Below are positions 4,202 to 9,387 of a stretch of DNA of 64,000 nt, in pieces. The notes beneath the pieces are model-generated. The model worked only from the letters and a program-made list of their open reading frames with translations. It did not search any database and was not told the origin of the DNA. The DNA is from Variovorax paradoxus. GTDB taxonomy: Bacteria > Pseudomonadota > Gammaproteobacteria > Burkholderiales > Burkholderiaceae_C. How positions within the stretch are numbered: position 1 is the stretch's first letter; every line of letters begins with the position of its first letter. The stretch is taken from the NCBI RefSeq assembly GCF_030811855.1, contig NZ_JAUSRN010000009.1:1-64000 (forward strand), read 5' to 3'. Made by a program: the position numbers and the translations under genes.

Positions 4202-4717
4202 GTGAAAAGACGCATCTACTGGTTGATGCCCGACCTGGCGAGTGCCAGAAGGGCAATGGACGATCTGGTCCGGGCGCGCGTCGACGTGGCGCGCATTCAT
4301 TTCGCCGGACCGGAAGGCATGGACATGGCCGGGCTTCATGCGGCCAACGTGTGGCAAACCTCCGACCTCGTTCACGCAGCCAAGACCGGCTGGGTGGTCG
4401 GCAGTGCCTGCGGAATCGTCCTTGGCCTCGTGGCCGCGCTGATGTTTCCGATCGTCGGCGACGACCCCGAATGGGAGGTGGCCGTGTTGGTGGCCATCCT
4501 GGGCGGCGTGGTCGGCGCCTGGTCGGCCAGCATGGTCGGCATTTCCATCCCGAGCCCCAGGCTGCAGCGTTTCGAAGGCGCCATTGCGGAGGGTCAGATC
4601 CTGCTGATGGTGGACCTGCCGCGCTCGCGCGTGCGGGACATCGAGGCGCTGCTGCAGTCCGCGCATCCCGAAGCCCGGTTCGAGGGTGAAGAGCCCCGCG
4701 TCCCGGCGCTCCTCTGA
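4202..4717 (+). CDS. DUF1269-like membrane protein
   Basis: The 171-residue protein has a soluble N-terminal region, two hydrophobic glycine-rich segments at about residues 62-82 and 94-114, and a soluble C-terminal tail. This resembles DUF1269/glycine-zipper membrane proteins of unknown function. The start is GTG, with a purine-rich ribosome-binding region (GAAAGGGGG) before it. It sits 45 bases upstream of the cytochrome oxidase operon on the same strand and may be cotranscribed with it, though no function in oxidase assembly is established. The membrane topology is visible; the family name is a moderate-confidence call. Confidence 0.65.
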   Translation: MKRRIYWLMPDLASARRAMDDLVRARVDVARIHFAGPEGMDMAGLHAANVWQTSDLVHAAKTGWVVGSACGIVLGLVAALMFPIVGDDPEWEVAVLVAILGGVVGAWSASMVGISIPSPRLQRFEGAIAEGQILLMVDLPRSRVRDIEALLQSAHPEARFEGEEPRVPALL

Positions 4718-4762: not shown

Positions 4763-5923
4763 ATGACCATGGCCGTTGCCCTGTTGCTCATCGTGGCCGG
4801 CTCGGTGCTGTTTCACGTTTTCAATCCATGGTGGACGACGCCCCTGGCTTCGAATTGGAAGCTGATGGACGACACCCTGGGCATCACGCTGGCGATCACG
4901 GGCATCTTCTTCATCGTGATCAACGCGTTCGTCGCCTACATGCTGGTGCGCTTTCGTCATCGCGAGGGCCGGCGCGCGGCGCATGAGCCGGAGAACAGGA
5001 AGCTGGAACGCTGGCTGATCGGCGGCACCACGGTCGGCATCATGGCCCTGTTGGCGCCGGGCCTGCTGGTGTACGCGAATTACGTCAGCGAGCCCCGCGA
5101 CGCGCTCGTGGTGGAGGTGCTGGCCCAGCAATGGCAATGGCGCTTCCGCTTCCCGGGCGAGGACGGCAAGCTGGGCGCGACCGATGCGCGCTTCTTCAGC
5201 GCCACCAATCCCTTCGGGATCGACCCCGCCGACAAGGCGGGGCAGGACGACCTGCTGATCGCCGGCGCCGAGGTGCATCTGCCGCTCGGCAAACCGGTGC
5301 TGGTGCTGATGCGTTCGCACGACGTGCTGCACGACTTCTTCGTGCCGAACTTTCGTGCCCGGATGAACACGGTGCCGGGGCAGGTTAGCCGCTTCTGGTT
5401 CACGTCGACCGTCGCGGGCCGCTACGAGGCGCTTTGCGCGCAGCTGTGCGGCGTAGGCCATCCCAACATGCGTGGCTACGTGGTGGTGGAAGATCCGGCG
5501 GCCTACCAGGCCTGGCATGCAGCGCTGCCGACATTCGCCAAGACGCAGGTCAAGGCGCCCGAGCCCCCCGCTGGCGCCGTCGCGGCGGGCGGTGGCGCAC
5601 GCGTTGAACAGGGCCGCGCGCTGGCGGATGCCAAGGGCTGCGTGGCCTGCCACACGATCGATGGCAGTGCGCGGGTGGGACCGACCTGGAAGGGCCTGTA
5701 CGGCAAGACCGAAAGCATGGCGGACGGCTCCAGCGCGCTGGTCGACGAAGCCTATCTGCGCAGCTTCATCCGCGATCCGCAGGCTCGCCACGTGAAGGGC
5801 TTTCCGCCGGTCATGCCCAAGATCGATTTGAGCGATGAAGAACTGGCCGCGCTGGTGGCCTATATCCAGAGTCTGGGCAGCCCGCCGGCGCAGGCTGCCG
5901 CCGAACAGAAGGCTCCGCGATGA
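4763..5923 (+). CDS. coxM: cytochrome c oxidase subunit II fused to cytochrome c (CoxM-like)
   Basis: This 386-residue protein is subunit II of a heme-copper oxidase carrying its own cytochrome c domain. Hydrophobic segments lie near residues 3-20, 38-63 and 84-108, followed by the CuA cupredoxin domain. CuA ligands are visible as a His in RSHDVLHDFF (186-190 region), C225, C229, H233 and M236 in CAQLCGVGHPNM. A covalent heme site CVACH is at 293-297, with a likely axial Met near 348. The residue between the two CuA cysteines that is normally Glu (bovine E198, an Mg ligand) is Gln227 here. The stop overlaps the subunit I start (ATGA). It accepts electrons from cytochrome c for the caa3-type complex. 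Confidence 0.93.
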   Translation: MTMAVALLLIVAGSVLFHVFNPWWTTPLASNWKLMDDTLGITLAITGIFFIVINAFVAYMLVRFRHREGRRAAHEPENRKLERWLIGGTTVGIMALLAPGLLVYANYVSEPRDALVVEVLAQQWQWRFRFPGEDGKLGATDARFFSATNPFGIDPADKAGQDDLLIAGAEVHLPLGKPVLVLMRSHDVLHDFFVPNFRARMNTVPGQVSRFWFTSTVAGRYEALCAQLCGVGHPNMRGYVVVEDPAAYQAWHAALPTFAKTQVKAPEPPAGAVAAGGGARVEQGRALADAKGCVACHTIDGSARVGPTWKGLYGKTESMADGSSALVDEAYLRSFIRDPQARHVKGFPPVMPKIDLSDEELAALVAYIQSLGSPPAQAAAEQKAPR

Positions 5924-7716
5924 ACGCTCCTTTGTCCCCCGGGCACGCCGTGCCGCACGCCGACGACGCCGGGCACCCGGCGCCCCAGAGTTTCCTGACC
6001 CGCTACGTCTGGAGCCAGGACCACAAGGTGATCGCCGTCCAATATGCCTGCACCGCCATCGCGGTGGGTGTGGTGGGCGTGGTGCTGTCCAACCTGATGC
6101 GGCTGCAGCTCGGCTTTCCGGGCCAGTTCGAGTTCATCAACGCAGAGCGCTACTACCAGTTCGTGACCATGCACGGGATGATCATGGTGATCTACCTGCT
6201 CACGGCGCTGTTCCTCGGCGGTTTCGGCAACTACCTGATCCCGCTGATGGTGGGGGCGAGGGACATGGTCTTTCCCTACCTCAACATGCTGAGCTTCTGG
6301 GTCTACCTGCTGTCGGTGGTGGTCCTGATGGCGAGCTTCTTCGTCGCGGGCGGGCCCACTGGCGCGGGCTGGACGCTGTATCCACCGCAGTCGATTTTGC
6401 CGGGCACGCCGGGCCATGCGGGCGGCATCGTGCTGATGCTGGTGTCGCTGGTGATCTTCATCGTGGCGACCACGATGGGCGGCCTCAACTACGTGACCAC
6501 CGTGCTGCAGGCGCGCTGCGAAGGCATGACGCTGCTGCGCATGCCGCTCACGGTGTGGGGCATCTTCGTGGCCACCATCCTCGCGCTGCTCGGCTTCCCG
6601 GCGCTGTTCGTCAGCGGCGTGATGCTGCTGCTCGACCGGACGCTGGGCACCAGCTTCTTCATGCCGGCGCTGGTGTCGATGGGCCAGGTGACGGGCTACA
6701 AGGGTGGCAGCCCGCTGCTGTTCCAGCACCTGTTCTGGTTCTTCGGCCATCCCGAGGTCTACATCGTGGCGCTGCCGGCCTTCGGCATCGTCTCCGACCT
6801 GATCAGCGTGCACGCGCGCAAGTGCATCTTCGGCTATCGCATGATGGTGTGGGCCATCGTGGCCATCGGCGCGCTCAGCGTGGTGGTCTGGGCGCACCAC
6901 ATGTTCGTGAGCGGCATGAACCCGTACTTCGGTTTCTTTTTCGCGACCACCACGCTGATCATCGCGGTGCCCACCGCGATCAAGGTCTACAACTGGATCC
7001 TGACGCTTTGGCGCGGAGACATCCACCTGACGGTGCCGATGCTGTTCGCGCTGGCCTTCCTGTGCACCTTCCTCATCGGCGGGCTGACCGGTCTGTTCCT
7101 GGGCAACGTGAGCGTGGACATCCCGCTGTCCGGAACGTACTTCGTGGTGGCGCACTTCCACATGGTGATGGGCGTGGCGCCGCTGCTTGTTGTGTTCGGC
7201 GGCATCTATCACTGGTTCCCCAAGGTCACCGGGCGCATGCTGGACGACCGGCTCGGCCAGCTGCATTTCTGGATCACCTTCCTCGGCACCTACGCGATCT
7301 ACTTTCCGATGCACTACCTCGGCGTGCTGGGCATGCCGCGGCGCTACTACAACTTCGACGGCTACAAGTTCATTCCGCCGTCGGCGTTCACCATGAATGA
7401 AATCATCACTGTGGTTGCGCTGATCGTCGGCGTGGGGCAGTTGCTGTTCATCTTCAACCTGGCCTGGAGCGCCTGGCGCGGCCGGCCGGCCGCCGCCAAT
7501 CCATGGCGTGCCGCCTCGCTCGAATGGCAGACGCCTGCCACGCCGCCGGGTCACGGCAACTGGGGTCCGCGGCTGCCGGTGGTCTACCGGTGGGCCTATG
7601 CCTATGGGGAGCCGGGCGCGGCGGAAGATTTCATCCCGCAGAACGCGCCGCCGGAACCCGGGGCCGGGGAGCCCGAGCCGGAGGGCCAGAGCGAGGTCCG
7701 GGGAGCACCGGCATGA
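5920..7716 (+). CDS. coxN: cytochrome c oxidase subunit I (CoxN-like)
   Basis: The 598-residue catalytic subunit reduces O2 at a heme a3-CuB centre and pumps protons. Heme a ligands are H85 (TMHGMIM) and H414. The heme a3 ligand is H412 (VVAHFHMV). CuB ligands are H277, H326 and H327, with the cross-linked tyrosine Y281 in GHPEVY. D-channel Asp115, gate E279 and K-channel K355 (TAIKVYNW) are present, so it should pump as an A-type enzyme. The segment before the heme ligands reads LSGTYFVVAHFH instead of the usual LHDTY, removing both Mg ligands. This signature and the neighbouring two subunit III genes match the alternative CoxMNOP oxidase described in Bradyrhizobium. Confidence 0.93.
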   Translation: MNAPLSPGHAVPHADDAGHPAPQSFLTRYVWSQDHKVIAVQYACTAIAVGVVGVVLSNLMRLQLGFPGQFEFINAERYYQFVTMHGMIMVIYLLTALFLGGFGNYLIPLMVGARDMVFPYLNMLSFWVYLLSVVVLMASFFVAGGPTGAGWTLYPPQSILPGTPGHAGGIVLMLVSLVIFIVATTMGGLNYVTTVLQARCEGMTLLRMPLTVWGIFVATILALLGFPALFVSGVMLLLDRTLGTSFFMPALVSMGQVTGYKGGSPLLFQHLFWFFGHPEVYIVALPAFGIVSDLISVHARKCIFGYRMMVWAIVAIGALSVVVWAHHMFVSGMNPYFGFFFATTTLIIAVPTAIKVYNWILTLWRGDIHLTVPMLFALAFLCTFLIGGLTGLFLGNVSVDIPLSGTYFVVAHFHMVMGVAPLLVVFGGIYHWFPKVTGRMLDDRLGQLHFWITFLGTYAIYFPMHYLGVLGMPRRYYNFDGYKFIPPSAFTMNEIITVVALIVGVGQLLFIFNLAWSAWRGRPAAANPWRAASLEWQTPATPPGHGNWGPRLPVVYRWAYAYGEPGAAEDFIPQNAPPEPGAGEPEPEGQSEVRGAPA

Positions 7717-8351
7717 GCACAGCGCTGGGCCGCTCCCTGGCAGGCGCGTTCCGCGGTGCGGAGCGCGGCCGCCGCCCTCCCGATGCACACGCGAGCGCGG
7801 CCAGCATCGGCCTGTGGGTCTTCATGGGCGTGGCCACCGCGTTGTTCTCCCTCTTCATCGTGGCCTACGTGATGCGCATGAGCGGCGAGGACGCGATCAC
7901 GATCGCGCTGCCGTGGCAGCTCTGGCTCAGCACGGCGCTGCTCGTCGCGGGCAGCGTGGCGCTGCAATGGGCCGTTGGCGCGTCGCGTGGTCGCGATCCG
8001 ACGCGGGCCCGCCGCCTGCTGGTGGCGGGTGGCCTCTGCGCGGTGGGCTTCCTGTGCGCGCAGCTGTGGGCCTGGCAGTCGCTGCTGGGCGCGCAGGTCA
8101 TGCCAGCCGGCAATCCGGCGGGCAGCTTCTTCTACCTTCTGACCGCCATGCACGGGCTCCACCTGACTGGTGGGCTGGCCGCGTGGACGTGGACCGCGCA
8201 CGACGCATGGCCCGAGCCCGGCAAGGCCGCATGGCGCATCGCGCTGTGTGCGCGCTACTGGCACTTCATGCTGGCGGTATGGCTGGTGCTGTTCGGACTG
8301 CTGGGCTGGGTGACGCCGGAGGTGGCGCGCTTCATCTGCGGCACATCCTGA
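7713..8351 (+). CDS. coxO: cytochrome c oxidase subunit III, first copy (CoxO-like)
   Basis: This 212-residue membrane protein has about five hydrophobic segments and a subunit III-like C-terminal region (AMHGLHLTGGLAAWTW, then RYWHFMLAVWLVLFG) with the family's His and aromatic positions. The ATG overlaps the subunit I stop in an ATGA arrangement, so it is the third gene of the operon. Subunit III stabilises the core and proton uptake into the D-channel. It is more divergent from classical subunit III than the next gene. A long arginine-rich cytoplasmic N-terminus precedes the first membrane segment. Confidence 0.85.
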   Translation: MSTALGRSLAGAFRGAERGRRPPDAHASAASIGLWVFMGVATALFSLFIVAYVMRMSGEDAITIALPWQLWLSTALLVAGSVALQWAVGASRGRDPTRARRLLVAGGLCAVGFLCAQLWAWQSLLGAQVMPAGNPAGSFFYLLTAMHGLHLTGGLAAWTWTAHDAWPEPGKAAWRIALCARYWHFMLAVWLVLFGLLGWVTPEVARFICGTS

Positions 8352-8362
8352 GGAGGCGTTTC

Positions 8363-9064
8363 ATGGACAACACCGCAACCATCGCGGCAACGCCGTTGAC
8401 TCCCGAGATCGCCGCAAGCGGCTGGCGCGGGCTGATTGCCGACTGGTCTTCCGACCGCCAGGCGTTCCACGTCTCGTGGGGCAAGGCAATGATGTGGATC
8501 TTCCTGCTCAGCGACACCTTCGTCTTCAGCTGCTTCTTGACCGGCTACATGACGGTGCGCGTCTCGACCACCGCGTCGTGGCCCAACCCCAGCGAGGTGT
8601 TTGCGCTCCACGTGGGTGGCGCCGACATACCGTTGCTGCTGATCGCGATCATGACTTTCGTGCTCATCACCAGCAGCGGCACGATGGCAATGGCCGTCAA
8701 CTTCGCCTACCGCGGCGACCGGGTGAACGCCGCCACGCTGATGCTCGTGACCGCGACCTTCGGCGAACTCTTCGTCGGCATGCAGGCCTTCGAGTGGTCC
8801 AAGCTGATCCTCGAAGAGGGCGTGCGGCCCTGGGGCAACCCGATGGGTGCGGCGCAGTTCGGATCGGCCTTCTTCATGATCACAGGCTTTCACGGGCTGC
8901 ACGTCTCGGCCGGCGTGGTCTTCCTGTTCGTCGTGGCCTTCAAGCTGATGCGTGGCGACTACGACAGGAGGGGCAACTACCAGATCGTCGAGATCACCGG
9001 CCTGTACTGGCACTTCGTGGATCTGGTTTGGGTCTTCATTTTTGCGCTGTTCTATCTTTGGTGA
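8363..9064 (+). CDS. coxP: cytochrome c oxidase subunit III, second copy (CoxP-like)
   Basis: This 233-residue protein is a more typical subunit III. Membrane segments lie near residues 42-64, 88-110, 124-145, 165-188 and 208-232. Signature segments are FGELFVGMQAFEWSKLI, TGFHGLHVSAGVVFLF and GLYWHFVDLVWVFIFALFYLW at the C-terminus. A strong AGGAGG lies ten bases before the ATG. Two consecutive subunit III genes are a hallmark of CoxMNOP-type operons. Both probably join the same complex, but whether they are simultaneous or alternative subunits cannot be told from sequence. Confidence 0.9.
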   Translation: MDNTATIAATPLTPEIAASGWRGLIADWSSDRQAFHVSWGKAMMWIFLLSDTFVFSCFLTGYMTVRVSTTASWPNPSEVFALHVGGADIPLLLIAIMTFVLITSSGTMAMAVNFAYRGDRVNAATLMLVTATFGELFVGMQAFEWSKLILEEGVRPWGNPMGAAQFGSAFFMITGFHGLHVSAGVVFLFVVAFKLMRGDYDRRGNYQIVEITGLYWHFVDLVWVFIFALFYLW

Positions 9065-9072
9065 GGACGACC

Positions 9073-9387
9073 ATGGACCACGTCTCAGGCCAACAACATC
9101 CGATCAGCCTCTATCTCAAGATCTGGGGGCTGCTGTTCGTGCTCAGCACGATGTCGTACCTCGTCGACTACTTCCATTTCCAGGGCTATCTGCGCTGGAC
9201 CCTGATCATCGTCTTCATGCTGCTGAAGGCCGGGCTGATCGTCGCGGTCTTCATGCATATGGCATGGGAACGGCTGTCGCTGGTCTATGCCATTCTGGTG
9301 CCGCCGCTGTGCCTGCTGGTCCTGGTCTGGCTGATGGCGGAGGAGGCCGGCCACACCTTCATCACGCGGCTGCTGTTCTTCCACTGA
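9073..9387 (+). CDS. cytochrome c oxidase subunit IV (prokaryotic type)
   Basis: The 104-residue protein has three hydrophobic segments (about residues 13-31, 41-63 and 70-90) with the family pattern MLLKAGLIVAVFMHM in the second. This matches the prokaryotic cytochrome C oxidase subunit IV family (COX4_pro, CyoD-like). It starts eight bases after the second subunit III gene and ends the operon. The subunit is an accessory that helps assemble or stabilise the core. It converges on the MFS gene with only 15 bases between the two stops. Confidence 0.85.
   Translation: MDHVSGQQHPISLYLKIWGLLFVLSTMSYLVDYFHFQGYLRWTLIIVFMLLKAGLIVAVFMHMAWERLSLVYAILVPPLCLLVLVWLMAEEAGHTFITRLLFFH

Follow-up and report, generated by a model that had tools for sequence, protein, structure and literature searches.

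A Mg ion lies within the water cluster that is thought to be the exit route of pumped protons in cytochrome c oxidase, and in one model described in PMC12901375 this cluster stores the protons. Can an oxidase whose machinery is otherwise kept do without the ion? The question is raised by the coxMNOP-like operon of Variovorax paradoxus, which lies in the window analysed here, the first 64,000 nucleotides of contig NZ_JAUSRN010000009.1 (assembly GCF_030811855.1), and in which the bovine-type Mg ligands H368 and D369 of subunit I and E198 of subunit II are all replaced. Judged from the sequences compared below, D369 and E198 are a coupled unit that is usually lost together and has been lost many separate times, although the coupling is not absolute, and the A-family cytochrome c oxidase that the window encodes in full probably has a subunit I/II interface made to function in the absence of Mg2+ or Mn2+. 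The features that carry the argument are the following.

4763..5923, + strand: coxM, 386 amino acids, subunit II with a CuA domain and a C-terminal cytochrome c domain (PF00116, 3.8e-14; PF00034, 9e-12)
5366..5368, + strand: N202 of CoxM (codon AAC), at the place of the bovine subunit II second-shell acid D173 (alignment and counts)
5435..5470, + strand: CuA loop CAQLCGVGHPNM of CoxM (comparison with solved chains)
5441..5443, + strand: Q227 of CoxM (codon CAG), at the place of the Mg ligand E198 (alignment)
5920..7716, + strand: coxN, 598 amino acids, subunit I, overlapping coxM by 4 bases (PF00115, 7.1e-142; TIGR02891, 674.6 bits, cut-off 670.75)
7117..7161, + strand: stretch DIPLSGTYFVVAHFH of CoxN with D400 (bovine D364), S404, G405 and the heme a3 and heme a histidines
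7129..7134, + strand: S404-G405 of CoxN (codons TCCGGA), at the places of the Mg ligands H368 and D369

Four residues of the Mg site are replaced in the Variovorax oxidase

Alignment to solved chains placed S404 and G405 of CoxN at the positions of H368 and D369, and Q227 of CoxM at that of E198, exactly where the initial annotation had put them. DIPLSGTYFVVAHFH aligned without a gap to the five solved subunits I listed, and CAQLC of the CuA loop did so to CSELC in 1ar1_B, 1qle_B, 1m56_B and 3om3_B, the four of the five listed solved chains that cover the stretch. Because the alignments of both subunits are ungapped, the ligand positions are not shifted, and a move of the ligands to nearby residues is ruled out. 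The window thereby carries S404, G405 and Q227 where Mg2+/Mn2+-binding aa3 enzymes have H368, D369 and E198, and both acid positions are neutral (G405 and Q227), as at the Mg-free ba3-type interface. CoxN is nevertheless no B-family ba3 enzyme: it keeps the D-channel residues and matched A-family solved chains at up to 1.5e-129, versus 1.6e-14 for the ba3 chain 1ehk_A. Alignment and counts further revealed a fourth change, absent from the initial annotation, in that N202 of CoxM stands at the place of bovine D173 of subunit II, a member of the Mg water cluster according to Table 1B of PMC12901375.

These positions were compared across 339 sources (after removal of two copies of the window), made up of named loci, loci from whole-genome searches in the window's phylum and 80 regions from rows without a locus. 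They provided 338 subunit I frames of at least 400 amino acids (two shorter ones were dropped) and 330 distinct subunits I, of which 320 were paired with a nearby subunit II on the same strand, the 10 without a partner being dropped. A gap in score from 470 to 890 separates a CoxN clade of 158 members from the remaining 172 A-family subunits I, 162 of them with a partner. States are written as the residues at 368 and 369 of subunit I and, after the slash, at 198 of subunit II (SD/E, for example), or as 369/198 alone (N/Q). Four strains mentioned below, C. metallidurans CH34, Burkholderia pyrrocinia, Skermanella rosea and Sphingobium sp. V4, stand outside these counts. Bovine residue labels are those of Table 1 of PMC12901375 where that table gives them.

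The residues for heme a, heme a3, CuB and the cross-linked Tyr (H85, H277, Y281, H326, H327, H412 and H414), those of the D and K channels (D115, N122, E279, T352 and K355, with E242 in bovine numbering among them) and the CuA ligands of subunit II (H190, C225, C229, H233 and M236) are present in the window and in all 158 clade members. In total, 14 subunit I and five CuA-ligand positions were checked and found invariant, as the initial annotation had indicated for the window itself. Since these residues are kept, oxygen reduction and proton uptake are expected to proceed as usual, and the difference would lie above the heme propionates, on the exit side. At bovine R439, the heme propionate arginine, Arg is found in 158/158 clade rows and His in 40/162 non-clade rows.

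D369 and E198 are usually lost together

Within the clade, E198 is also missing in 45 of the 46 members that lack D369, and it is kept in 111 of the 112 that have it. Sorted by charge at 369/198, the clade comprises 111 acid/acid, 45 neutral/neutral, one basic/acid and one acid/neutral row; the non-clade rows comprise 81 acid/acid, 66 neutral/neutral, eight neutral/basic, three acid/basic, three acid/neutral and one neutral/acid. All 63 paired non-CoxN rows from three orders are N/Q, and one family holds N/R, N/L, A/F, E/K and D/N rows. Parsimony on the tree of 320 pairs gave subunit I 15 changes and subunit II 16. On 13 branches both subunits change, and with the same direction (10 losses and three regains as rooted; 12 such branches under the other tie rule), when chance gave a mean of 1.31 shared branches and a maximum of 6 in 20,000 draws. 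By shared changes D369/E198 ranked first among 51,614 inter-subunit column pairs with 6-60 changes (Jaccard 0.62 vs 0.30 for the next pair), and by background-corrected mutual information (MIp) it ranked first among 123,235 inter-subunit pairs (0.65 vs 0.38), first of 121,223 outside the clade and fourth of 140,956 inside it.

Such a signal might be an artefact of alignment, pairing or tree, with wrong partners or shared ancestry mimicking coupling, and it is true that many rows are closely related and that part of the sampling deliberately targeted three orders and one family. However, the subunit partners are same-strand neighbours, the motif is ungapped, events were counted per branch, and none of the other 51,613 inter-subunit column pairs comes near. 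Because the targeted sampling had been aimed at groups with odd pairs, the tests were rerun without those rows, and the signal persisted: 10 of 12 and 13 changes were shared (chance mean 1.2, maximum 6, 10,000 draws), and MIp again ranked the pair first, of 123,738 (0.51 vs 0.41 for the next). We regard an artefact as highly improbable. The initial annotation had proposed a coordinated loss in two genes, and for D369 and E198 this stands, with 13 shared branches where chance gives a mean of 1.3 and with rank 1 of 51,614.

Position 368 changed separately

The same proposal did not hold for H368. At this position the clade has Ser in 154 members, Ala in two, Asn and Gly in one each and His in none (n = 158), yet 110 of them are SD/E. 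The change from His to Ser therefore spans the whole clade and either predates the loss of the acids or is independent of it. The initial annotation had treated H368, D369 and E198 as one unit and had named homologues with only one of the three changed as the case that would speak against it; the 110 members that lost H368 alone are such homologues. Nor do 404 and 227 covary (MIp rank 112,197 of 123,235 for the full set, 108,853 of 121,223 for the non-clade rows and 13,299 of 140,956 for the clade), and we replace the unit of three residues by one of two. Outside the clade, 15 rows are QD/E, with Q at the H368 place and D369 and E198 kept; they include L058 and L001, the latter another oxidase of the window's genome. 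Five rows of one family (f48) show Q-E.

In the tree the window's branch comprises 36 rows (16 SN/Q, 19 SG/Q and one SQ/Q), whose named members are betaproteobacteria, and it lies basally in the clade, in a part of the tree with poor root placement (outgroup branch 1.69). SG/Q forms a single group of 19 that includes the window (support 73), and because this group is nested within the SN/Q-bearing branch, the residues suggest that Asn preceded Gly at 369. Burkholderia pyrrocinia and C. metallidurans CH34 are SN/Q too, the latter with Asn at the D173 place, and Skermanella rosea and Sphingobium sp. V4 are SD/E. Apart from the window's branch, both acids were lost several times outside the clade and five further times inside it, the latter as follows:

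L031: G/Q
L055: A/Q
L072, L074 and L251: A/A, S/A
Three rows including L127 and L129: G/G, A/G
L109: Q/Q

One clade row, L126, is alone in combining R369 with E198, and its CuA loop reads CAELCS, not CAELCG. The suggestion that the loss characterises the CoxMNOP-like branch has to be given up, as most sampled members keep both acids and other A-family oxidases and the Thermus ba3 enzyme share the loss.

Second-shell and nearby residues

D173 of subunit II is kept in 112/112 clade members with D369 and is Asn in 36 of the 46 without it; these 36 are L031, a separate loss, and every row but one of the window's branch (35/36), and the other ten acid-less members keep D. Outside the clade it is D in 103/162 rows and Y or T in 58 of the 63 HN/Q rows. 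D173 is present in 12/12 rows with a built-in cation and lost in 94/111 rows with a neutral pair, counts that with seven changes on the tree reflect few independent events.

Could another cation still occupy the site, be it Na+, K+ or Mg2+ bound through residues such as D400, CoxM D191 and the heme propionates? D400 is kept in 153/158 clade members, and polar Q157 (bovine L132; 155/158) and D191 of CoxM (bovine S162; 113/158) lie nearby, the latter being commoner in acid-less members (42/46 vs 71/112 of the rest) and present in 35/36 rows of the window's branch. Q157, however, is as common where D and E are kept (112/112 vs 43/46) and is not supported as a stand-in for the lost acids. Since D173 is lost as well in 35/36 rows of the window's branch, the acids appear to have been removed rather than moved, and the Thermus ba3 enzyme, which has the same N/Q pair, is described in PMC12901375 as containing no metal there. 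Taken together, we consider continued occupancy by another cation unlikely, and favour an interface without the ion.

Selection and expression of the operon

In a little-used accessory oxidase under relaxed selection the site might have decayed with nothing depending on it, and the knockouts described in two sources would agree with this: loss of coxMNOP had no fitness effect in Cupriavidus necator in the data of PMC11540253, and growth of the Rhizobium etli mutant was normal under the conditions tried in PMC4274787. The ratio of nonsynonymous to synonymous substitution rates (dN/dS) is also somewhat higher for CoxN (0.16-0.22, seven comparisons) than for canonical subunit I (0.056-0.184, six comparisons). 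These ratios are nonetheless well below 1, and CoxM (0.26-0.36, seven comparisons) resembles canonical subunit II (0.17-0.36). The invariance of the catalytic residues throughout the clade also argues against decay, as does the chemically matched nature of most replacements, and the identical paired loss in all 63 paired non-CoxN rows of three orders is not the decay of a spare copy. Relaxed selection strikes us as a rather improbable account, and a retained, metal-free interface as the better one.

Use of the enzyme under magnesium shortage is not supported by the Collimonas pratensis transcript data in PMC12542777. There, a gene annotated as alternative CoxM had 1,150 reads without Fe and Mg vs 2,484, about two-fold lower, and a second CoxM-like gene had 155,400 reads without Fe and Mg vs 69,310 and does not appear in the differential-gene table (PMC12542777). 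According to PMC9634551, Mn(II) raised coxM transcripts 8.5-fold and coxN transcripts 9-fold in 18 °C biofilms of Pseudomonas sp. MOB-449. The sampled Pseudomonas rows (L019, L024 and L056) keep both acids.

Comparison with known oxidases

The operon resembles the CoxMNOP alternative aa3 oxidases in its II-I-III-III-IV gene order and in the cytochrome c domain fused to subunit II, and CoxN is 70-88% identical to the subunits I of 80 CoxMNOP loci, the best 80 of 591. The difference is that D369 and E198 are kept by the majority of the sampled members and are missing in the window's betaproteobacterial branch. CoxMNOP probably corresponds to the COX operon with a COX3 doublet called 'type a-III' in PMC4013037.

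The closest precedent for the acid positions is the ba3 enzyme of Thermus thermophilus, which has N377 and Q151 there and a water cluster without Mg (PMC12901375, section 3.3). Its CuA domains were the best-scoring solved chains for the window's CuA loop, although the best solved match of whole CoxM was the aa3 chain 1ar1_B. According to PMC12901375, Thermus ba3 belongs to the B family, which has no active D channel, and keeps H376 as well as acidic E126 in the position of D173, whereas the window is of the A family, with a D channel, S404 and N202. The loss of the pair in CoxMN and in other A-family oxidases of several lineages stands beside the Mg-free N377/Q151 site already known from that source. 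We recognised no report of natural D369/E198 covariation in the literature searched, most subscription papers being out of reach.

With the bovine, Paracoccus and Rhodobacter aa3 enzymes the window shares the redox and proton-uptake residues but differs at H368, D369, E198 and D173, all of which are replaced. The actinobacterial aa3 chain 6adq_F, which we take to be from M. smegmatis, likewise lacks the His, with T at the H368 place, but keeps the Asp (both by alignment). In Corynebacterium aa3, Asp391 and Glu287 line a Mn2+ cavity (PMC8795186), and by analogy a dispensable His368 fits both this cavity and the Thr of 6adq_F.

The locus and its neighbourhood

Downstream of coxN the operon continues in tight order on the same strand, coxM-coxN-coxO-coxP-subunit IV, with the two subunit III genes of the CoxMNOP type, the first of which scores just under the Pfam cut-off.

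5639..5665, + strand: CVACHTIDG, the heme c motif of the fused cytochrome c domain of CoxM
7713..8351, + strand: coxO, first subunit III-like gene (PF00510, 22.5 bits, cut-off 23.8; start inferred)
8363..9064, + strand: coxP, second subunit III gene (PF00510, 1e-20; start inferred)
9073..9387, + strand: subunit IV gene at the coxQ place (PF03626, 1.3e-12; start inferred)

Five genes in the window's genome match PF00115. Immediately upstream of coxM lies a frame of 171 amino acids (window 4202-4717, + strand) with no Pfam match; at the corresponding place Burkholderia pyrrocinia has DUF1269 and hypothetical genes, and immediately downstream of its coxMNOP (L344, 6962-7276) a gene for a high-potential iron-sulfur protein, a possible electron donor. 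On plasmid pSR-3 of Skermanella rosea (L342), ctaD lies about 1.6 kb upstream of the coxMNOP operon, and in Polaromonas jejuensis (L008, L346) a canonical oxidase operon with QD/K follows a few kb downstream of the alternative coxMN operon. A 4.5 kb contig labelled Dehalococcoidia (L077), which we guess to be misbinned, encodes a CoxN 72% identical to that of the window.

How an A-family oxidase may work without the ion

The observed part of the history has two steps. H368 was replaced across the clade, nearly always by Ser, and most members keep D369 and E198 and therefore could still bind a cation; in the window's branch D369 then gave way to Asn, Gly or Gln together with E198 to Gln, and D173 to Asn in 35/36 rows. 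We propose that, without the ion, two facing carboxylates would be costly and would hence be neutralised together, and that the place of the ion would be taken by hydrogen-bonded waters forming a neutral network over the heme propionates, as in Thermus ba3. In the weakest step of the proposal, an Arg or Lys replacement side chain would stand in for the ion. The interface would thus be freed of its metal by neutralisation in the window enzyme and perhaps by a built-in Arg or Lys elsewhere, the loss of the metal and its effect on function being read from residues.

Several points weigh against this. The named loci are the best 80 of 591 candidates and lean towards close relatives, the targeted rows come from three orders and one family in which odd pairs had turned up before, and the sample is almost wholly Pseudomonadota. 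In the most conservative test, on well-supported branches, eight pairs gave a mean of 5.7 concordant and 0 discordant changes with a median p of 0.031, and the independent-pair test inside the clade alone (five pairs) gave p = 0.125. Exceptions to the coupling are one AD/Q, one SR/E, two HD/N, one HD/M, one HG/E and three HE/K rows (n = 320). From K198 in a second subunit II of Polaromonas jejuensis, the subunit I belonging to it was predicted beforehand to lack a plain D369; it has QD, and the prediction failed, so that D369/K198 would fit an acid-base pair only in hindsight. D191 of CoxM, being commoner in acid-less members, may have a compensating role, and neutral Asn, Gln or Gly ligands, D400, D191 and the heme propionates could hold a cation still.

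A wider reading, to which we lend only tentative credence, is that the A-family Mg site is one of three interchangeable charge solutions at the subunit I/II interface: D/E with a metal, a neutral pair (N/Q, G/Q, A/Q, A/A, G/G, A/F and others) or a built-in cation (N/R, E/K, D/K, R/E). If so, the repeated paired switching would mean that proton release in this family can do without a divalent metal. The contrast at D173 between rows with a built-in cation and rows with a neutral pair lends this reading some support, from few independent events. Site-directed mutants of the Mg site exist in Rhodobacter and Paracoccus. Natural A-family enzymes that lack the acids and otherwise keep their machinery would make the role of the ion testable without the damage of artificial mutants, and the paired pattern predicts that a double change of the acids would be better tolerated than either single one.

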